Positions 23,786-46,527 of a stretch of DNA of 64,000 bases are shown in pieces. Location of the stretch: contig JHUT02000014.1 in assembly GCA_000690595.2 (NCBI GenBank), positions 1 through 64,000 on the forward strand. Reading direction: 5' to 3'. The notes beneath the pieces are model-generated. The model saw only the letters and a list, made by a program, of their open reading frames with translations. It searched no databases and had not been told where the DNA came from. A program made the translations under genes and the position numbers. Within the stretch, counting starts at the first letter, position 1, and each line of letters opens with the position of its first letter. Source of the DNA: Natrinema mahii (GTDB lineage Archaea; Halobacteriota; Halobacteria; Halobacteriales; Natrialbaceae).

Positions 23786-26700
23786 TTACCCCGTTATGAT
23801 ACCAGCGTGGTAACCCGACTGAGAGCCAACTATATTAGAACCATTCCAGACATCGTCGAATGCGGATGTTTCATTGTTTGGTATTCTTGGTTGGGTACCG
23901 CTGCTCTGAACATCTTCAAATCCGCGTATTTTGCCGTTTTGGTTTATCCTTGGAGCAGTTCCGCCGTTCTTTACATACGGGTAGGCATTGTATATCCCAC
24001 CCTTCTCGCCTTCAGTGACTATCCTCATTTTGCTGATCCTATATTGTTCTGCACTTTTTCCATCTAATGTGTATACGACTGCGTTATTGTCGTATCTAGT
24101 TTTTTCTGCAGAGTTCTTTATTAACCTAACAACTTCTTCTTCACTCATTCGGTTTGGGAGCGATTTCACAGTGTTATCAATTTGAACATTCCCGCCAGTG
24201 GGATACCATCCATGCGGCGCATCATCAGCTGACTTAACCACATGGTTTTCTCCCATACCCGTATGTTTTGATAGAATCTCGTCTAATTGCTCTTGTCTTA
24301 GCCATCTAGCCTTTCCATTCGGATTTTTTGTTATCATCCGAACTTCAGACATGTCATTAACTCTTTCAGCGTCCAATGCAGAATCGATAGTTGAATCAGT
24401 TACTCTGCTTCCGACTTGGATTTGTTTTAGATTGGATCCCTCACTTGACAAACGCTTGATTACTTCTGGATTGACACCTTGTTCGGATAGTCGCTTCGCG
24501 CCTCGGAGATCGCCCCCTTGTCTCGCTACTGATTGGATCCATTCGTCACCATGGGTGCGTTGTAATGTGTTATAGATATCTTCTGAGTAGAGTTCCTTCA
24601 GAAGTCGTTCATTGAACTCCGAAGATCCCGACCGAAGTAGTAGCGGCGTTAGTTGGTTGATCTTGGTTGGATGCCTCGCGGCGAACTGCCTTACCTTGCT
24701 GACCGTCTTCGGTGTTGCTGCTGGTCCAGAAAGGAGTCCAAGTGATGATAGTCCTGCGTCAACACCATCTCTACGCTCTGCGGCACTGACGAGGTCTCGA
24801 GCATCGGCAGCTGTCCCCACTCCTGGTGCTATAGAGGACCCCATCCAGCCGGCAAAGAAGGCTGCTGAGTGTTCTTCATCGTACTTTTTGTACTCCCAGC
24901 AATGGTCTCCGCAGGCAACTCCCCATGCTGCCGCAGAGATACCGCTGAAATCAGCGCCCTCTGCCTGAACGCGGTACTCTTCGAGACCGGGTTGGGCTCT
25001 TAAGGTTGCTGTGCCAACTGGTTTACCATTCTTATATATATCAACGTAATATCTTTTGCCAATCGAGAATTGTTCCTGAAATTCAAAAGTACCGTTCTCG
25101 TCAGCTATAGCGGTCTTATTTCCACGAAGAGTTTCAAGACGTGCGTTCTTAATCGGGCTACCGTTTTCATCCATGACGACACCTGAGACTGTTTGGGTCT
25201 GTCCAAGCTGTATCTCAATATCTTCCTCAGTTGGACTCACAGGATAGACGATTTTGGAGGGAGAAGTTCCACCACCATCGTAAATTACGATTCGATCGTG
25301 AGGTTCGATATCTTGAGAAAAGGTGACTTCACCGCTCCTGTTGGTGAGCCTTGGTTTCTGGGCACGAGTCAATTGGACTGATCTGAAACTGGCGGGACTA
25401 CCATCTTTTTCAAATACTTGAACTGAGAGAGTCTTCTCGGTATTTAGGAAAACCTCTTCTTGTGTAGTCATATTCTCACCGCTAGATCCTGCTACATTGA
25501 GTTCGGCATAGAGTTCGGTTGTTTCGCCTGGTCCTACCATCAAATCTTTAACCGGACTAACAGCGAACGACTTCTCGAACCCACCGCTAGACAGATCATG
25601 GCAGGCGATTTCATTGGGTGTGTAAACATCTGTTTCATAGAGACAAACCGTGCCCTCGTCACCGATCTGACCCGCTACTTCGATATCGAACGGTTCTTGA
25701 GATCCAACCTCTGACGGCGGTCCTGTATCCCAATGTACTCGATTTATATCGTCCTCTGTCTTGTTTGCTTTAACAACGATATCCCAAGAGATAGTGTCAC
25801 TTTTACCGCCACTTTCGTCATAGGTTACTGCTGAAACAATATACTCTCCATTATTATTGAAGCTATTATTATAGGTGGCTAAACCACTGGATCCACTGAT
25901 ACTGTTGTTCGTTTGGCGATTCCCGTCAATAGACCACTCCACAGTCTTGAGGTTGCCATCGTCGTCGGAGATGTCAATACTAAATTCAGTTGATTCTCCT
26001 TCATCAACAGTGAAATCTTGTCCGGGCGAATTACGTTCGGCTTCCGGAGGTGTGTTTTTTTCTTTAACGGTAACTTCCCAAGTAACTGCTTCGTCATTAT
26101 AGATATCTTGACTATTGAATACATCTGCTTCTACCGTGTACTCACCCGGTTCATCGAAGGTATGATCCCATTCTTCTGTGTCAGAAGACCCGCTTAACCC
26201 CCATGTTACGTCTTGTTGGTTATGATCGACGTACCACTCAGTACCGACTAGTTCTCCATCGGAATCTTCCCCGCCTACAGTAAACGTTTGACTCTCACCC
26301 TCCTCGAGAGTTATCACTTTATCGGGGGCTTCTATCTGCGATTCTGGCGGTTGATTTTCGTCTGCTTCGACAGTGATCTCCCAAGAAATTGTGTCGCCTT
26401 CAAATCCCTTCTCATCAAAAACAACAGCCGATATAAGAAACGTTCCCTTGCTATTGAAGGTGTTCTCATAGGTGTCCCTATCATTGGAACCGCTGACACT
26501 GTTTGATGTCTGGTGATTCCCATCGATATACCACTCCACGTTCCTGAGATTGCCATCATTATCCGAGACATCAACGCCAAATTCAACTGATTCACCTTTC
26601 TCGCGAGTAACGGAAAAGTCAGGAGAGTTTCGTTCGGCCCTTGGGGGCTTGTTTTCTTCTTCCTTAACAATGACAGTCCAGAGAGCTGCCTCGTCGTTGT

Positions 26701-27979
26701 ATACATCTTCATCATCGAACACATCTGCTTCTACTGTGTATTCTCCCGGTTTATCGAAGGTATGACCCCATTCGTCTGTGTCAGATGAGCCGCTCAGTCC
26801 CCATGTTACTTCTTGCTGGGTATGGTCAACGTACCACTCGGTACCGACTAGCTCTCCATCAGGATCTTCCGCACTTACAGTAAAAGTTGGGCTCTCACCC
26901 TCTTCGATAGTTATCTCCTTATCTGGCGATTCTATCTGCGATTCTGGCGGTTGATTTTCGTCTGCTTTGACGGTAACCTCCCAAGAAATCGTGTCGCCTT
27001 CGAGTCCCTGCTCGTCATAGACAACTGCTGAGACATAGTGCTTTCCATCATTGCTGAAAACGGTGTTGTAGCTGTCTACATCTCTAGAATCCCTAACAGG
27101 ATTAGTTGTCTGGTAATCTCCATCTATGTACCAGTCAACGTTCCTGAGATTACCATCGTCATCAAAGACATCGACATTAAACTCAACTGATTTGCCTTCC
27201 TCGCGGGTAACAGAAAAATCAGGAGAATCACGTTCAGCCCTTGGAGGATTGTTTTCCTCTGCTTCCTCAACGGTGACAGTCCAGAGAGCTGCCTCGTCGT
27301 TGTATGCATCTTTATCATCGAACACATCTGCTTCTACCGTGTATTCTCCCGGTTTATCGAAGGTGTAATCCCATTCATCTGTGTCAGATGAACCGCTTAA
27401 TCCCCATGTTACTTCTTGTTGGGTGTGATCGACATACCACTCAGTACCGACTAGTTCTCCATCTGGATCTTCCGCACTTACAGTAAAGGTCGGGCTCTCT
27501 CCCTCTTCGATAGTTATCTCCTTACGGGGTGATTCTATCTGTGATTCTGGTGGTTGATTTTCGTCTGCTTCGACGGTAACCTCCCAAGAAATTCTATCAG
27601 ATTTCTCCCACTCATCATTATAGACGACTGCTGCGACGAGATAGGTACCCTCGCTATCAAAAGTGGTATCGTAGGTGTCTGTATCGCTGAAACCATTAAT
27701 GCTGTTTGTAGTTTGCCGATTGCCATCAATATACCACTCAACATTTCCAAGGTTACCGTCGTCATCAGAAACATCAATACTGAATTCTACTGACTCTCCT
27801 TCTTCACTGCTAACAGCAAAATCAGGGGAGTTGCGTTCGGCTTCTGGCGAGGTAGTGGCCGAGGCTGATGTTACAAGTGCTACAGATGAAAAGAGGATAA
27901 GTATCAGCAGAATAGCACCCCCTGTTGAAACGCTATTTAAACCACTCTGCGGTCTGTCCTCGTTGTCCCCCACCAGCAT
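23786..27979 (-). CDS. Giant exported polymorphic-toxin-like protein
   Basis: This is a 1397-residue protein. Residues 20-41 are a signal/membrane helix (GGAILLILILFSSVALVTSA). Seven Ig/PKD-like domains of about 85-90 residues then alternate as two types, A (AERNSPDF, WYIDGN) and B (ESQIESP, TFTVSAEDPDGEL, EWYVDH). Next are a less repetitive region and a carboxypeptidase-regulatory-like domain (VSGVVMDENGSPIKNARLE). Residues 1039-1104 (IAPGVGTAADARDLVSA) resemble bacterial pretoxin segments. The final ~177 residues hold a variable-looking domain with EILSKHTG and GGIYNAYPY, reminiscent of EndoU/BECR-type RNase toxins. Secretion, presentation on repeats and a toxic tip fit a contact-dependent weapon. 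The toxin call is inference. Confidence 0.72.
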   Translation of the reverse strand: MLVGDNEDRPQSGLNSVSTGGAILLILILFSSVALVTSASATTSPEAERNSPDFAVSSEEGESVEFSIDVSDDDGNLGNVEWYIDGNRQTTNSINGFSDTDTYDTTFDSEGTYLVAAVVYNDEWEKSDRISWEVTVEADENQPPESQIESPRKEITIEEGESPTFTVSAEDPDGELVGTEWYVDHTQQEVTWGLSGSSDTDEWDYTFDKPGEYTVEADVFDDKDAYNDEAALWTVTVEEAEENNPPRAERDSPDFSVTREEGKSVEFNVDVFDDDGNLRNVDWYIDGDYQTTNPVRDSRDVDSYNTVFSNDGKHYVSAVVYDEQGLEGDTISWEVTVKADENQPPESQIESPDKEITIEEGESPTFTVSAEDPDGELVGTEWYVDHTQQEVTWGLSGSSDTDEWGHTFDKPGEYTVEADVFDDEDVYNDEAALWTVIVKEEENKPPRAERNSPDFSVTREKGESVEFGVDVSDNDGNLRNVEWYIDGNHQTSNSVSGSNDRDTYENTFNSKGTFLISAVVFDEKGFEGDTISWEITVEADENQPPESQIEAPDKVITLEEGESQTFTVGGEDSDGELVGTEWYVDHNQQDVTWGLSGSSDTEEWDHTFDEPGEYTVEADVFNSQDIYNDEAVTWEVTVKEKNTPPEAERNSPGQDFTVDEGESTEFSIDISDDDGNLKTVEWSIDGNRQTNNSISGSSGLATYNNSFNNNGEYIVSAVTYDESGGKSDTISWDIVVKANKTEDDINRVHWDTGPPSEVGSQEPFDIEVAGQIGDEGTVCLYETDVYTPNEIACHDLSSGGFEKSFAVSPVKDLMVGPGETTELYAELNVAGSSGENMTTQEEVFLNTEKTLSVQVFEKDGSPASFRSVQLTRAQKPRLTNRSGEVTFSQDIEPHDRIVIYDGGGTSPSKIVYPVSPTEEDIEIQLGQTQTVSGVVMDENGSPIKNARLETLRGNKTAIADENGTFEFQEQFSIGKRYYVDIYKNGKPVGTATLRAQPGLEEYRVQAEGADFSGISAAAWGVACGDHCWEYKKYDEEHSAAFFAGWMGSSIAPGVGTAADARDLVSAAERRDGVDAGLSSLGLLSGPAATPKTVSKVRQFAARHPTKINQLTPLLLRSGSSEFNERLLKELYSEDIYNTLQRTHGDEWIQSVARQGGDLRGAKRLSEQGVNPEVIKRLSSEGSNLKQIQVGSRVTDSTIDSALDAERVNDMSEVRMITKNPNGKARWLRQEQLDEILSKHTGMGENHVVKSADDAPHGWYPTGGNVQIDNTVKSLPNRMSEEEVVRLIKNSAEKTRYDNNAVVYTLDGKSAEQYRISKMRIVTEGEKGGIYNAYPYVKNGGTAPRINQNGKIRGFEDVQSSGTQPRIPNNETSAFDDVWNGSNIVGSQSGYHAGIITG

Positions 27980-29793: not shown

Positions 29794-30402
29794 ATGAGCA
29801 AGAAACCTGACCTTCTCACTCAATTAGCTGACTCATTTGCATCTGTAATTCCGGATGTCGATACACGTGCCGAACACGATCGATGGAAATCCGGAATCGG
29901 GCCATTCGAGGAAGAGAATCAGATCGAAATGATTCTCGAAGCGCTCGAGGGCCACCCGCTACGAGAAGCGATCGAGGCTGAAGTATCGTACCTCGATGGT
30001 TCGCAACGATGCGACCTCTTTCTTGATCACGACGGGCGTCAACTTCCAGTGGAAGCCAAGCTACTCCGGTTCCGGTACGATAACGGAAACATCGATCCGA
30101 ACAGTTTCGCTCGTATCTTCACGCCATTTCCTGAACGGAGTTCCTCATCCCTACTTACTGATACAAAGAAACTCTACGAGTCAGAGTTTGGATCAAACGG
30201 CGGAGTACTCGGTCTCTATTACGAAAAAACCGATGAAGAGTACGAGCAAATGACTGCCGAGGCAGTTGCCGAGAAGTTTTGTATGGACGTGGATCACTGG
30301 TACGATTTCCAGGTAGAAACGAGGAATATCGCCTACTTTGACGGGCTACAGCATCCCAATCATCAGCAAGGCGCCGTCATCACGTGGGAGATCGTCGAGT
30401 GA
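29794..30402 (+). CDS. PD-(D/E)XK nuclease-superfamily-like protein
   Basis: This is a 202-residue protein. The core region reads EAEVSYLDGSQRCDLFLDHD followed by LPVEAKLLRFRYDNG: an Asp on one strand and Glu-x-Lys on the next, the arrangement of the PD-(D/E)XK nuclease active site. A conserved Glu upstream (ENQIEMILEALEGHPLREAI) may be the helix residue. The rest has no recognised domain. It starts at ATG 29794 and is followed 8 bp later by a truncated DUF6884 gene, so the two were probably an operon. Defence or element-processing nuclease activity is inferred. Confidence 0.6.
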   Translation: MSKKPDLLTQLADSFASVIPDVDTRAEHDRWKSGIGPFEEENQIEMILEALEGHPLREAIEAEVSYLDGSQRCDLFLDHDGRQLPVEAKLLRFRYDNGNIDPNSFARIFTPFPERSSSSLLTDTKKLYESEFGSNGGVLGLYYEKTDEEYEQMTAEAVAEKFCMDVDHWYDFQVETRNIAYFDGLQHPNHQQGAVITWEIVE

Positions 30403-30409
30403 TCGAACA

Positions 30410-30553
30410 ATGACCGAAATAAGACTAGTAAGCTATACGAAAACGAAACGCGAATTACCAGAGCCACCGGATGAGTTGTACAGTCCGTTGACGCTGTTCA
30501 GCAAGGTTCGCCAGTACTGTGGATCTCATCTACTGAAACTCCGAGTTAGATAG
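30410..30553 (+). pseudogene. Truncated DUF6884 gene (N-terminal 47 residues)
   Basis: The frame reads MTEIRLVSYTKTKRELPEPP and LYSPLTLFSKVRQYCGSH. This is the N-terminal signature of DUF6884-type proteins (lVSCtKtKr ... LY.pS.LF.kar.Y), which normally continue for another ~100 residues. Here it stops after LLKLRVR. The break falls exactly where the 3' end of the opposite-strand CARF-like gene begins (30530), so that gene's arrival or a deletion probably cut it. The usual Cys of the motif is Tyr here. Family assignment is from memory. Confidence 0.65.
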
Positions 30554-31441
30554 CGGATCGTTAGTTGCAGCCCACATCTCACCAATACGAGAGAATTCGA
30601 TCCGATGTCTCTTCCCTTCTTCCTTTTTTACAACTAACCCCTTTTCTCTAAGATTGTCTATCCAATATCTCACCTTATTCTTATGAGAATTATCACACTC
30701 TATCTCCCTCCATTCTGCATGCTGACGCGCCAGTTCTGATATCGACTCTGCTTCCCCCATATACTGTAGCACCTGAAGTGCCTCCTCCTCTGATTCGGTG
30801 ATCCCGGTTACAGGTGGTGCTACGAATTCCACATGGTGCTTTTCGTTCGGAAGTTGTCGCGTTCCACTTGTAGTCCCTTTATCTAAATCATCTAATAAGC
30901 TAGAAATACTTTCTAAATGCTCTTCTGCATCTGGCTTGATATCTTGGCTGAAGTCCCCTTCTTTCAAAAAGTCAGCTATAGACTCCAGTTCCTCTATAGT
31001 GTTTATCATCAGGTAGTTTTCTGGCGACGAATAATATGTGTGAATTTTGTCTCTCATTTCTGGACGCTCTACGACATGGGTGTTAGCCGCCGTAGCATAT
31101 GCAAATGCTACTGTTCTCGGCATAGATGAGATATTGACGAAGATCGTGTTTCCTTCGTCAAGTTCCGAGGTGAGCGTCTTATACGCATATTCATACAAAT
31201 TTTTGTAATTAAATATATCAGATATCACCTCCGTTTCTACTGTAGTACCAAGCACGCTTTCAACTGAACTTTTAAGTTCACTAACAATATTCTCAGCGAG
31301 TTCTGCTTCCTTTTTCCGATCTGACTCTTGCTCTGAATACAAGAGAACAATCCTATCTGGGTCGAAATCATCGTAATGGAGAGGTTGCACCAGCCTCTCA
31401 AAATCGAACCCCACCGGAATATAGTGTACTTCGTCGCCCAT
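30530..31441 (-). CDS. CARF-like sensor with winged helix (HFX_2341/DUF6293 family regulator)
   Basis: This is a 303-residue protein. The N-terminal Rossmann-like domain contains VHYIPVGFDFERLVQPLHYD, DRIVLLYS and FVNISSMPRTVAFAYATAA, a layout like the CARF/Csa3 group that binds cyclic oligonucleotides or related ligands. A linker leads to a C-terminal winged helix (SEEEALQVLQYMGEAESISE, VRYWIDNLREKGLVVKKEE). It is divergent from the CBASS-like operon, whose first gene starts 337 bp away, so it may sense a nucleotide signal and control that operon. The family name is from memory; ligand binding is inference. Confidence 0.75.
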   Translation of the reverse strand: MGDEVHYIPVGFDFERLVQPLHYDDFDPDRIVLLYSEQESDRKKEAELAENIVSELKSSVESVLGTTVETEVISDIFNYKNLYEYAYKTLTSELDEGNTIFVNISSMPRTVAFAYATAANTHVVERPEMRDKIHTYYSSPENYLMINTIEELESIADFLKEGDFSQDIKPDAEEHLESISSLLDDLDKGTTSGTRQLPNEKHHVEFVAPPVTGITESEEEALQVLQYMGEAESISELARQHAEWREIECDNSHKNKVRYWIDNLREKGLVVKKEEGKRHRIEFSRIGEMWAATNDPLSNSEFQ

Positions 31442-31778
31442 AACCCACTAGTTATCAACTGGAATTCAATAAATGCTTTTGTGCAAAATCAGCCATCACA
31501 CGATGCGAATTCTACTGTTGACGGTATTTACTAGATATAAACAGCAGTTCGCATGATCACAAAAAATCGGCTAGTCTAATCCGCTAGATGGATTTTTGGG
31601 TGTTTAGGTTGTGTGTATATCTAACTTCAAGAAGGTATATCTCATACCGATGATAACTCGGGGTAATGTGTCCAATTGGCTCAGAACACAGAGTCCGTGT
31701 TCAGAAGCAAGTTCCCGTATCAACCACTTGCTGTGGTGGACTCAGCTTCTGACAAAAGAGGCCATTAGATGTTAAACA
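31442..31778. promoter_or_regulatory. Divergent control region of the CBASS-like operon
   Basis: This 337-bp, A+T-rich region lies between the CARF-like gene and the unknown gene at 31779. Near the right end TCAGAAGC (about 31700) faces GCTTCTGA (about 31745), with a smaller CCAC/GTGG hairpin between, so the leader RNA could fold or the dyad could bind a regulator. No gene is supported. Confidence 0.5.
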
Positions 31779-32711
31779 ATGGAAAATGTGCATGGGATAA
31801 CCGCGAAGGAAGCCAAATCCGACAAGCAAAGCAATACGGATGGCGGCGAATCGCGGTCAGAAGAAGAAGAAGAACAGATATATCAAACAGGGCTAGTTCA
31901 GGGAACCGAGCTACCAGAACGTCCAGGACTAGAAATTCCTCGCGTCCAAGCGACTCAAGCCCATTTCGAGTTCTCGACATCCCTTGAGGGCGTCGTAATG
32001 ATTAGTATTGAGGACGCACGCCGATTAGCAGCCAAAGGGGAAACAGCGGAGTCCGTTTTCGGAAACATGCTCGTCACCGTAACGACAACCGTTCACGACG
32101 AGATACTCGAGAAATGGTATCCGGAGAAAGAAATCCAACTGGTTCTGGACTTTGAGCCCGATTTCTACGTTCCTTGTGATCGTCCAGTCTATCGAACGGA
32201 TAGTAAGAAAGAGCGACGCGAAATAATAACCCGATATCTCCGAGACTTGAAGGAGATTACCAAAGCTATCAGAAATCTCTCCACAGAGATCATTCCATTA
32301 GTCAAAGGAGAACTTCCCCGAGAACGAAAACAGTGTTATCGATGCTTTAAGGGTCTAGGCTTTGATCGATTTGGCTACTATTGTTCTCAATACTTCTTAT
32401 ATGGTAATCACGGTGAGGAACTAATCCAGGATGTCCGGCAGATCGTCAGTGAGGCACAGCCAAGAGCGATGCTACTTATCGGAGTGCAAGCATCGTCGTA
32501 CCTTCGACGTATGCCTCTCGAAGTTACTGCTGCTGCTGGAGAGCGTTGGCGGCGGAAATCTGGCCTTCGGAACGATTCACTAAGTATACAGCAGGTACAG
32601 CGGAACTATCGAGATTGGTCTCGCGAAATCGAAAAAGAGCTTGAAGGGGGTCAGTCGCGTCTGGAGAGGTTTGTCACAAACACTGCAGAGGCCTCAATTC
32701 ATGGGAACTAA
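31779..32711 (+). CDS. Unknown protein, first gene of the CBASS-like operon
   Basis: This 310-residue protein belongs to no family I can name. It has an acidic N-terminal ~60 residues, then a region with FEPDFYVPCDRPVYRTDSKK, IIPLVKGELPRERKQCYRCF, DRFGYYCSQYFLYGNHGEEL and a stretch reading AMLLIGVQASSYLRRMPLEV. Alternating strands and helices ending in a glycine suggest an alpha/beta, perhaps TIM-barrel-like, enzyme fold. CYRC could bind metal. The stop overlaps the CD-NTase start by 11 bp, so the two are translationally coupled and probably act together. It could be an effector-side or regulatory partner of the cyclase. Confidence 0.7.
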   Translation: MENVHGITAKEAKSDKQSNTDGGESRSEEEEEQIYQTGLVQGTELPERPGLEIPRVQATQAHFEFSTSLEGVVMISIEDARRLAAKGETAESVFGNMLVTVTTTVHDEILEKWYPEKEIQLVLDFEPDFYVPCDRPVYRTDSKKERREIITRYLRDLKEITKAIRNLSTEIIPLVKGELPRERKQCYRCFKGLGFDRFGYYCSQYFLYGNHGEELIQDVRQIVSEAQPRAMLLIGVQASSYLRRMPLEVTAAAGERWRRKSGLRNDSLSIQQVQRNYRDWSREIEKELEGGQSRLERFVTNTAEASIHGN

Positions 32712-33690
32712 AATAACATCACAAGACGATGCGGCAGCTGGTAAAGAAGATAGCAAGGAGGGTGGTCTTCCTGAGGAACAACAAGAACTACCCGAAAGCC
32801 GAAATGAAGCGGAGCAAGCGGCAGAAGAGGTGTGTGAAGAAGAGGCAGACCAGTCAAAGGTTTCTGAGCGAGAAGGCAAGAAAGTCGCTGATCGTCGGGA
32901 AGAAGTGCGTGATGCTCTTGAGGATGAACTCGGGATCAAAGAGCAGCATATCTTCGGTTCATTTACTCGAGGCACCTTAGTTGGCCCTCTTGACGAGGAT
33001 TCAGACACTGATGTTATGTTCGTGTTGGACGAGGAAGAACACGGAGATTGGATTCGAGATCCAGAAAATGGTCCTCGAAACAGTCTACGGCGCGTGAAGC
33101 GGATCCTTCAGAATGACTCCCGGTTTAAGCGCGCAAATATTTCTGTTGACAGGAATGTAGTAGCGATCCAGTTCGATGATTTCACAGTTGAGGTCGCTCC
33201 GGCGTTCGAGCGAGGTGATGATTACGTTATTCCGAACACGTATCGGGAAGGTGCTGGATGGGTCCGAACAAATCCACGCCGGTATAAACAACAGTTCGAA
33301 GCAGTCAACGAAAATCGGAATGGGAACGTCGCAAAGCTCGCACGACTCGCAAAAAAGTACAACGAGCAAACTGGTAAGCAGATCTCATCGTATCATATGG
33401 AAGTCATGGTGTATGATTTCATGCGAACTCGTTCTTACCAAGATGAGCCGATAGATAGACTCGTAGACGACTTCTTTGGACAACTTCCTGAGCGACTATC
33501 GAGTGGGACCTACGACCCTGCAACGGACCAAAAAATCGACGACGGCCTTCGGAATGAGGATCGTGAAGAAGCGATCTCTAACGCGAAGAAAGCGAGAGAG
33601 AAACTTCAGAGAGCTAGAGAAAGAAAAGAGAACAACGAAACAGATTCCCAAGAGCACTATGAGGAGGTCGTCGATGGTAACATCGAATAA
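32701..33690 (+). CDS. CD-NTase (cGAS/DncV-like nucleotidyltransferase, SMODS family)
   Basis: This is a 329-residue protein. After a ~75-residue acidic low-complexity N-terminus comes the polymerase-beta-like active site: HIFGSFTRGT (Gly86-Ser87) and DEDSDTDVMFVLD (Asp102, Asp104). The third carboxylate position reads VEVAPAF, with Glu instead of the usual Asp. RTNPRRYKQQF and the helical C-terminus fit the SMODS layout. Such enzymes make cyclic di- or oligonucleotides on phage sensing to trigger an effector. The start at 32701 overlaps the previous gene. The SLATT gene follows and overlaps by 17 bp. Confidence 0.85.
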   Translation: MGTKITSQDDAAAGKEDSKEGGLPEEQQELPESRNEAEQAAEEVCEEEADQSKVSEREGKKVADRREEVRDALEDELGIKEQHIFGSFTRGTLVGPLDEDSDTDVMFVLDEEEHGDWIRDPENGPRNSLRRVKRILQNDSRFKRANISVDRNVVAIQFDDFTVEVAPAFERGDDYVIPNTYREGAGWVRTNPRRYKQQFEAVNENRNGNVAKLARLAKKYNEQTGKQISSYHMEVMVYDFMRTRSYQDEPIDRLVDDFFGQLPERLSSGTYDPATDQKIDDGLRNEDREEAISNAKKAREKLQRARERKENNETDSQEHYEEVVDGNIE

Positions 33691-34231
33691 GTCTAAGAAT
33701 CGCCGATCTCTGCTAGAAGACAAAGCTATTGAGGAGATCGTGAGTCTTTGGTATACTTATAACCAATTATTTAAAGCAGCTAACTTTCACCGCCATGTGG
33801 GTCAAAGCGTGTCTTTTCTAACTGGTATTCTTGGTGGGATTCTCACCTATGGACTAATTTGGGATGGGATCCCAAATACGATTATGATTGGTTTTGCGGT
33901 CCTGATTTCCGTTCTAACTGCTCTCCGTAGCGCCTTCCAGCTCACAGATAAACAACGGGAGTTACGAGCGGCAGCGAACGAATACAAGGACTTGTGTGAT
34001 GAAACTCGACTTTTACTTCAACTGGATTTTCCTAATGAGGACATCTCAGATGTAGAGATTGAGGATAAAATTCGAGAGATCAATGATCGACGTCGAGAAC
34101 TCAACAAAGAGTCTCCTGATGTCAGCAGCTTCTGGTATCACTATATCAAGTATAGGAAATCACCCTCCGCCCTTGGAGAAATAACCGTTTCAGATACGGA
34201 ACGCGCGATCGTTACCGGGCAAGATACCTAA
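33674..34231 (+). CDS. SLATT-domain two-TM membrane protein (CBASS effector)
   Basis: This is a 185-residue protein. A helical N-terminus (IVSLWYTYNQLFKAANFH) is followed by two adjacent membrane segments (SFLTGILGGILTYGLIWD and TIMIGFAVLISVLTALRSAF), then a long cytoplasmic helix bundle (QRELRAAANEYKDLCDETRL). This is the SLATT arrangement (SMODS- and SLOG-associating 2TM effector), thought to open pores and kill the cell when it receives a nucleotide signal. GAGGAGG at 33661-33667 is a strong ribosome-binding site that fixes the start at ATG 33674, inside the end of the CD-NTase gene. Confidence 0.85.
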   Translation: MVTSNKSKNRRSLLEDKAIEEIVSLWYTYNQLFKAANFHRHVGQSVSFLTGILGGILTYGLIWDGIPNTIMIGFAVLISVLTALRSAFQLTDKQRELRAAANEYKDLCDETRLLLQLDFPNEDISDVEIEDKIREINDRRRELNKESPDVSSFWYHYIKYRKSPSALGEITVSDTERAIVTGQDT

Positions 34232-38953: not shown

Positions 38954-40201
38954 TCAGTCCGTACTGGCGTCGGCGAACTCTCGAGCCTCCCGGAGCACCC
39001 CGGGGTTCTCGTCGGCGAGTTCGATGAACTTCTCGACTCGCTCGAGATCGTCGAGCAGTTCGGGATCATCGCGAGCAATCTTGAGAAGTTCAGTCCGGGT
39101 CTCCTCTTGTCGTTCCTCGATCTCTTCAACAGCCCCGTGTTCCATCGCTTGACCGCACCACACGCAAAGCGATTCGTTCCGTGGTGTCTTCCGCTGACAG
39201 CGGGGACAAGTCTGCGGAGAGATGGGATCGGACTCGTCTTCCTCGACGTCGACGCCGTGAGCCCTCGCGATCTCTCGATCGTTGGCGTCACCGAAGACGG
39301 CGACGTAGCGAGCGGCGACATCGGAACCGCGATCCCATCCGTGATGGTCCTCGAGGTGCGCCTGGTTGACGCCCTCGGAAGCGAGATAGGATGCGGAGGA
39401 TTTCCGCATCTGAGTGAAGGTAACGTCGGTGTGAGTGACGCCGGCCTTCCGGGCGTGCTTCTTCAGAATCTTCAGCTTCATCTGATAGCTGACTTCCTTC
39501 GGCTGGTTGAGCTGGCACCACAGTGGTGCTTGCGGATCGTTCGGTGCGGGATGGACATTCAGCCATTGTCGGAGATACGGAGCAGCAGCGATGAGCATAA
39601 TCGACCGCTCGCCCTTCTTCCCGTCGACGGAAATCTGGAGGCCGTACTTGTGATCGGCGATGTCGCCGACGGTAAGGGACAGAATCTCACCGCTTCGAGC
39701 GCCGGAGTCCCATGCGGTCGCGATGAGAGCTTTGTCGCGATGGTGACGACACTCCTCGAGCATCGGCTTGATGTGGTCGTCCCACCAGAGCATCTTCGCC
39801 GGGTCCGGCATCGGATTGTAGTTCTTCGATGTCGTCGCGGAGACCCAGGAGATACTGTCGGGGATCTCATCGCCGTCAGTGACGCGTTTGCCAAACATCC
39901 GAAGGGCGACCCGATAGTCTCGGTTCGATTCCTCGTTTTCGTAGTTACTGTGGATCCAGCGGACGATGTCTTCCGCTGCTCTCTTATCCTCGAGAGCGTC
40001 CGCGAGTCCACCAACGTTCTCGGAGATCCGAACACAGTGCCTGACGAGCTTCGCACGGCGCTGCTTACCGTACTGACTCCCGAGGAGGGCGAGTTGCCTG
40101 TCGAAGTCGATGAGGGCCTCCTGATCGTCGCTACTGATGTCTTCGCTGTCCTCGATACGCTCTTGCAGCCGTTCGAGCCGACGGTCAGCATCGCGGGTCA
40201 T
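38954..40201 (-). CDS. Tyrosine recombinase (integrase) of the island
   Basis: This is a 415-residue protein. The catalytic residues are readable: Arg169 in GARSGEILSL, Lys around 195 in VDGKKGERS, Arg266 in FTQMRKSSASYL (Thr replaces the first His of the HxxR box), the region LEDHHGWDRG, and the nucleophile Tyr299 in VAARYVAVFG. After the catalytic domain is a zinc ribbon (CPRCQRKTPRNESLCVWCGQ) and a helical tail. It lies 38 bp from the right attachment site. It should insert the element at the tRNA-Phe 3' end and, with help, excise it. Confidence 0.92.
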   Translation of the reverse strand: MTRDADRRLERLQERIEDSEDISSDDQEALIDFDRQLALLGSQYGKQRRAKLVRHCVRISENVGGLADALEDKRAAEDIVRWIHSNYENEESNRDYRVALRMFGKRVTDGDEIPDSISWVSATTSKNYNPMPDPAKMLWWDDHIKPMLEECRHHRDKALIATAWDSGARSGEILSLTVGDIADHKYGLQISVDGKKGERSIMLIAAAPYLRQWLNVHPAPNDPQAPLWCQLNQPKEVSYQMKLKILKKHARKAGVTHTDVTFTQMRKSSASYLASEGVNQAHLEDHHGWDRGSDVAARYVAVFGDANDREIARAHGVDVEEDESDPISPQTCPRCQRKTPRNESLCVWCGQAMEHGAVEEIEERQEETRTELLKIARDDPELLDDLERVEKFIELADENPGVLREAREFADASTD

Positions 40202-46122: not shown

Positions 46123-46527
46123 TCAGCGCAACTGGTAGGTCTCGTCCTCGTCGTCGAGTTCGTCGAGCAACAGGATTTCCTCGTCCTCGTCCTCGAGGCG
46201 GTCCTGCAGGTCGTTGACGTAGGCCTTGTACTCCTCGAGTTGCTCCCGGAGGTGTTCGGCCTCGAGTTCGAGCCGCTCGTGTTCGCGAACGAACTGCTTT
46301 GGCACCTCGACGGTCGGCGGGAACGAGACGTCAGCCCCCTCGTCTGTGCGGACTTCGAGGTCCGTCTCGGGGACGACCTCGACCTGACCGTCGTGTTCGA
46401 CCAGTTGGTCGACGTAGTCCCGGAAGACGGCCGACAGCGAGATGTCGCGCTCCTCGGCGATCGCCTGCAGCGCCTCGAAGGCGTCCTCGTTGACCCGGAA
46501 CGAGATGGTCTTGTTCTTGTTCCCCAT
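46123..46527 (-). CDS. Ribbon-helix-helix protein with C-terminal coiled coil
   Basis: This is a 134-residue protein. KTISFRVNEDAFEALQAIAE then ERDISLSAVFRDYVDQL forms a CopG-like ribbon-helix-helix. A short acidic linker leads to residues about 84-115 (REHERLELEAEHLREQLEEY), a likely coiled coil, and an acidic tail. The coiled coil would let dimers join or bind a partner. Small haloarchaeal RHH proteins of this type include cell-division regulators, but this one is longer and its targets are unknown. Confidence 0.85.
   Translation of the reverse strand: MGNKNKTISFRVNEDAFEALQAIAEERDISLSAVFRDYVDQLVEHDGQVEVVPETDLEVRTDEGADVSFPPTVEVPKQFVREHERLELEAEHLREQLEEYKAYVNDLQDRLEDEDEEILLLDELDDEDETYQLR

Follow-up and report, generated by a model that had tools for sequence, protein, structure and literature searches.

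The window, i.e., a stretch of 64,000 nt from Natrinema mahii (contig JHUT02000014.1), carries a regulator gene that lies divergent from an operon of three genes (Table 1). The encoded protein consists of a CARF domain (about residues 3-140), a linker and a winged helix (about residues 209-295). That this open reading frame specifies a CARF-type sensor joined to a winged helix, as the sequence-only reading had proposed, is borne out by Pfam, PADLOC and an AlphaFold2 model: HFX_2341_N is matched with 73 bits (cut-off 30, E 3.8e-20), as expected of the HFX_2341/DUF6293 domain family, DUF6293_C is matched at the expected place with 22.8 bits (E 1.2e-4), below its cut-off of 27, and the PADLOC model CARF3 reaches 307 bits. 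The sensor part thus matches CARF models, and the Pfam scan of the protein gave no match to a WYL domain. Scores remain below the cut-off for the NCBIfam equivalog of HFX_2341/Crr, NF051475 (212.5 bits, cut-off 500), and for Csa3, TIGR01884 (18.6 bits, cut-off 60.2); the core HFX_2341/Crr copy of the same genome is located on another contig. The gap of 337 bp up to the divergent ATG at 31779, also part of the earlier reading, agrees to the nucleotide.

The same reading had the regulator face a CD-NTase operon. A CD-NTase gene is indeed present, but it comes second, after a TGT-like gene and before the effector gene. With a CD-NTase and an effector, the operon has the gene content of a CBASS operon, and its TGT-like protein, by the PADLOC TGT match, provides the Cap10 that characterizes type IV CBASS. 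The effector, for which SLATT_4 scores 52 bits and thus slightly below the cut-off of 55, probably starts at 33674, the mechanical ORF beginning at 33476. A gene for Cap9 (QueC-like) is absent from the operon in the window, QueC was found in just two of the other loci examined, and the genome has one strong QueC, which is encoded on another contig; the host archaeosine QueC may stand in for Cap9. The combination of an N-terminal Met-Gly on the CD-NTase with a TGT-like Cap10 is the context of type IV CBASS (PMC11996544). The CD-NTase in the window starts with Met-Gly followed by a long linker, and such a start is possible in all haloarchaeal CD-NTases examined (the window protein and 19 relatives), which corresponds to a deazaguanylation context, though Cap9 is missing from the window operon.

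Table 1. Features of the regulator locus and of related loci discussed in the text.
Feature	Position	Strand	Basis or remark
1397-aa protein	23786-27979	-	Edge of low-GC island
202-aa protein	29794-30402	+	Downstream of CARF gene
CARF-wHTH regulator, 303 aa from ATG	30530-31441	-	ORF; Pfam and PADLOC matches
Divergent intergenic control region, 337 bp	31442-31778		77% identical to orthologous locus of G087
Likely basal promoter of CARF gene, GCATTTATTG on minus strand	31467-31476	-	Predicted from sequence
Candidate operator dyad CAAAAAATCGGCTAG-N9-CTAGATGGATTTTTG	31560-31598		Weak candidate; unique in G000 and G087 genomes
TATA-like GTATATCT	31615-31622	+	Predicted; 36 nt past centre of window dyad
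TGT-like (Cap10-type) protein, 310 aa	31779-32711	+	PADLOC TGT 388 bits
CD-NTase, 329 aa from ATG 32701	32701-33690	+	PADLOC Cyclase 474 bits; NCBIfam CBASS_cyclase_b 260 bits (cut-off 200)
SLATT-type 2TM effector	33674-34231	+	PADLOC 2TM effector E 1e-13
Integrase gene	38954-40201		Pfam scan
Cap10-type TGT-like gene and Met-Gly protein with long acidic linker	L085:11069-13118; L086:10578-12639; L138:5785-7679; L087:7560-9372		

About 22-36 kb of the window form a low-GC island, with a GC content of mostly 0.45-0.53 vs. 0.60-0.71 in most of the flanking sequence. The 1397-aa protein at the island edge shows, by eye, repeated PKD/Ig-like segments and a distinct C-terminal part, and could be a secreted surface protein. 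No family model reaches its cut-off with the 202-aa protein encoded behind the CARF gene; the V-E-A-K motif of this protein hints at a putative PD-(D/E)xK-like nuclease.

Synteny was followed in a set of 391 haloarchaeal genomes. Matches to the window protein occur in 376 of these, because the core homologue Crr is included. An accessory subfamily was therefore set apart by an accessory-sequence profile, which finds 24 genomes with at least 398 bits (core proteins at the loci tested score about 290-325); this profile was built from members known to be mostly TGT-linked, and a remote accessory CARF without TGT might escape it. In 23 of the 24 genomes, the accessory CARF gene and a TGT-like gene are immediate, divergent neighbours, with G235 counted by coordinates matching those of L187 (Halococcus thailandensis). 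The sole exception, G269 (Haloarcula japonica), sits at a contig end, and its divergent 385-aa gene gave no sign of being TGT-like (hhalign probability 0.2%, no informative Pfam or PHROGs match). Since no more than 57 of the 391 genomes contain a TGT-like gene of this kind, the pairing is far above chance; the pairs are spread over different replicons and several families. Named genomes, a set that overlaps with the larger one, were scanned as well; the 27 loci obtained gave a TGT-like neighbour for 18 of 19 accessory-type CARFs and for none of the eight core-type loci, where the near-universal HFX_2341/Crr resides.

The CD-NTase model PDLC00805 is matched in 23 of the 391 genomes, and every CD-NTase locus also has the TGT-like and SLATT genes, in unchanged order. 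Nine of the 24 accessory CARFs face such operons, i.e., in nine of the 23 CD-NTase genomes, always right next to the TGT-like gene and divergent from it (G000, G087, G040, G258, G219, G223, G198, G113 and G322, where the divergence runs across the ends of a contig taken to be circular). Another 14 face TGT-like operons without an HMM-detectable CD-NTase (13 loci plus Halococcus L187), and 14 of the 23 CD-NTase genomes have no accessory CARF. The juxtaposition of DUF6293 and CD-NTase genes is hence not peculiar to the window genome, and the expected synteny is kept in several families; the constant partner, however, is the TGT-like (Cap10-type) gene and not the CD-NTase.

In a tree of the CARF proteins, core, TGT-only and CD-NTase-linked groups separate with two label changes, the minimum possible, and the accessory subfamily is split from core Crr by a long, fully supported branch. 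The CARF and CD-NTase trees correspond in their main split. CARF-linked CD-NTases occur in both deep halves of the CD-NTase tree, while the TrmB-regulated members fall together in one, a sign that regulators were exchanged or replaced at the same divergent slot. This slot is occupied in nine CARF-less CBASS loci (L029, L030, L032, L036, L038, L040, L043, L044, L045) by a TrmB-type regulator and a PadR/SocA-like 150-aa protein. At L031, L033 and L047, genes for an AAA-type ATPase (about 370 aa) and a protein of 244-248 aa closely precede the TGT-like gene in the same orientation. As to the TGT-only operons, the gene following the TGT-like gene encodes either a protein with a Met-Gly-linker start or a protein of about 150 aa starting with MPRKGG/MTRK. 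The former carries, in the place of the CD-NTase, a Thioredoxin_5/DSBA-like domain in L085 (by eye also in L086 and L138) and an unassigned domain in L087; these four Met-Gly proteins are possible new clients of N-terminal deazaguanylation. The latter is conserved (MPRKGG/MTRK...SHLRD) behind a diverged TGT-like gene in L118, L119, L120, L121 and L153, with a divergent CARF regulator, and its C-terminal part recurs in the Met-Gly protein of L087.

A 22-bp palindrome of the type TCGTACAAA-N4-TTTTGTACGA lies between the two genes in six CD-NTase loci, namely L163 (Halonotius terrestris), L049, L048, L051, L035 and L041, which are related to one another and do not represent six independent events. 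Its centre is located 74-81 nt from the CARF start, and the best case is TCGTACAAATTGTTTTGTACGA. Within the dyad, 42 of 66 positions are paired, vs. 26 at the best other slide and 16.2 +/- 3.6 (SD) in random windows. The TATA-like box of the TGT-like operon, picked by eye, follows 33-35 nt past the palindrome centre in five loci and 39 nt in one. In genome-wide searches allowing up to three mismatches, a pattern that leaves out the diverged palindromes of G113 and G040, the motif was found only at the CARF-TGT locus in G198 and G223, and the whole Halonotius genome contains one further match, with three mismatches. The palindrome is therefore a probable local, dedicated operator and the predicted site of the CARF protein. 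The control region in the window holds no convincing site of this type, the best window score (13.5 bits) being found elsewhere, at 46163, and the recognition-helix region reads NSHKNKVRYW in the window protein vs. DSFKSKVQYN in the palindrome-group relatives. The dyad proposed for the window itself has a spacing to a TATA-like box that is close to that of the six loci; between G000 and G087 it shares a run of 23 identical bases, which is not significant against shuffled sequences (P 0.13). The intergenic alignment of the TGT-only group shows conserved promoter-like elements and no clear dyad.

A sequence search of the PDB with the CARF and TGT profiles returned nothing below E 0.1, so that a search by structure was needed. 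The AlphaFold2 model, computed from the window protein and public relatives (25 rows; pLDDT 76.8, pTM 0.69), has the predicted Rossmann-like fold of the CARF superfamily. Its best structural match in Foldseek is cA4-bound Csa3 (6wxq, E 6e-6, prob 1.00; also 6w11), followed by Csm6, Can2 and Cam1. Structure comparison with Can2, Card1 and Csa3 gives Z values of about 12-14; VIA-align yields Z 14.1 to Can2 and, across 197 residues that include a domain shift (rmsd 11.7), Z 13.3 to Csa3, and the C-terminal winged helix compares to haloarchaeal RosR with Z 13. Two loops line the predicted pocket: V10-G-F-D13, which resembles the first pocket motif of Csa3 (PMC8699464), and N103-I-S105-S-M-P-R109, which follows strand 4, fits the CARF signature [DN]x[ST]xxx[RK] (PMC4012209) and is invariant in both alignments used (A2 and the 25-row A3). 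Both loops are invariant across accessory CARFs, and core Crr deviates only slightly. Each lineage has its own state at position 36 in the loop that follows strand 2, namely Ser in CBASS-linked, mostly His in TGT-only and Gly in core proteins.

The domain make-up, the divergent synteny, the palindrome in six relatives and the CARF pocket motifs suggest that the regulator is probably dedicated to the Cap10-CD-NTase-SLATT operon that it faces, a type IV-like CBASS, and controls the transcription of this operon in a ligand-gated manner. From these observations we infer DNA binding: a dimer would use its winged helices to bind a palindromic operator between the two genes and would thereby set the expression of the operon, and probably of its own gene, too. 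A nucleotide-type ligand, the presumed class, would bind in the CARF pocket and alter either operator binding or the effect of binding. As to the sign of regulation, an activator or a two-way switch appears to fit better than a TATA-blocking repressor, because the palindrome is placed upstream of both basal promoters. Doubt about a dedicated regulator arises in the window, since the six-locus palindrome is missing, the recognition-helix region differs and the local dyad is weak. Moreover, cA4 left DNA binding by Csa3 unchanged in vitro (PMC8844856), which counts against ligand gating.

For the ligand, parsimony favours a putative class common to the whole family. Type III CRISPR cyclic oligoadenylates from the same cell are an unlikely source, because Cas10 was not found in any of the 23 carrier genomes with one Pfam model, which an unusual Cas10 might escape. 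The best-placed candidate, which we hold tentatively, is a housekeeping nucleotide, e.g., c-di-AMP, common to core Crr and both accessory lineages; CBASS and TGT-like operons might then, with the same reserve, be coupled to the state of the cell and not to CBASS activity. A DacZ-type c-di-AMP synthase (PF02457) is encoded in 23 of 23 carrier genomes, and the accessory CARFs have their pocket loops in common with core Crr. However, residues near the pocket are lineage-specific, and we know of no direct evidence for c-di-AMP binding by any CARF domain. Both cyclic oligoadenylates and c-di-AMP are discussed as ligands by the authors of the Crr study (PMC11434293).

Rather doubtful is the proposal that the CARF domain binds the cyclic oligonucleotide of the neighbouring CD-NTase, resulting in feedback on, or priming of, CBASS expression. 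CARF domains in solved complexes bind cyclic oligoadenylates, the closest structural match of the model is a cA4-bound protein, and the absence of Cas10 matches calls for another source of ligand. CBASS-linked CARFs also have their own state (Ser) at position 36 and stand apart in the tree, and the main splits of the CARF and CD-NTase trees agree; co-inheritance as a cassette, however, accounts equally well for the tree pattern. The proposal is weakened because the TGT-only sister clade, in which both invariant pocket loops are the same, faces TGT-like operons that have no CD-NTase, and because core Crr, with the same motifs, is present in most genomes, including genomes without CBASS, vs. a CD-NTase in only 23 of 391. 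In addition, the majority of CD-NTase genomes do without an accessory CARF. The CD-NTase product is thus a possible ligand for the CBASS-linked lineage only, and the full feed-forward loop on the CBASS alarm, in which CBASS-linked CARFs, on binding what their own CD-NTase makes, would raise operon transcription, is less likely still.

That the sensor responds to the 7-deazapurine/Cap10 side, i.e., to the free base or to the state of the TGT-like protein, is improbable: the TGT-like gene is the constant divergent neighbour and no other partner is shared by all accessory loci, but core Crr has the same pocket loops without such a neighbour, and no precedent of CARF domains binding 7-deazapurine-type ligands is known to us. 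Very improbable is a passenger Crr paralogue without a role in operon control, to which the low-GC island and the nearby integrase might point, given the strict divergence from a single gene family in 23 of 24 cases, on different replicons and in several families, and the conserved palindrome between the genes.

One of the closest known systems is HFX_2341/Crr of Haloferax mediterranei, which has the same domain order, 38-40% identity and the same pocket loops. When Crr is overexpressed, cas transcripts decrease, so transcription is the level at which the family acts (PMC11434293). Crr is a chromosomal regulator of near-universal occurrence and has no TGT-like gene next to it, while the window regulator is accessory and TGT-linked. 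With CRISPR-associated, cA4-binding Csa3, it has the fold, the type of pocket motif and a MarR-like wHTH in common (PMC8699464), but it scores below the TIGR01884 cut-off, no cas gene is among the neighbours scanned and no Cas10 was found in the genome. CapW of bacterial CBASS (PMC9122588) is likewise a CBASS-encoded, dimeric wHTH regulator, presumed to be ligand-gated, with a palindrome in the promoter region; unlike the window regulator with its CARF sensor and a site position that suggests an upstream switch, it is a repressor with a WYL sensor. The operon resembles type IV CBASS (Cap9/Cap10; PMC11996544) in its Met-Gly CD-NTase, TGT-like Cap10 and effector, and differs in having no Cap9/QueC gene. 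Transcriptional control of CBASS as such is established by CapW (PMC9122588), and CapK/CapS, located upstream of diverse immune operons, also exert transcription control (PMC13373217).

Transcription factors of CBASS are already known, and so are Csa3, as a CARF-wHTH regulator of CRISPR, and Crr, as a global regulator; a full-text literature search of incomplete coverage returned no paper that links a CARF regulator to CBASS or to Cap10-type operons. In the CBASS-associated regulators known so far, sensing relies on WYL or other domains. A CARF sensor on CBASS would link two worlds of cyclic-oligonucleotide defence at the level of transcription, and if the feed-forward loop were true, a sensor known from type III CRISPR would close a loop on CBASS. 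The conserved palindrome provides a ready DNA probe, and the three lineages (core, CBASS-linked and TGT-only), which have the pocket loops in common and differ in their partners, offer a direct route to the ligand of the orphan Crr.
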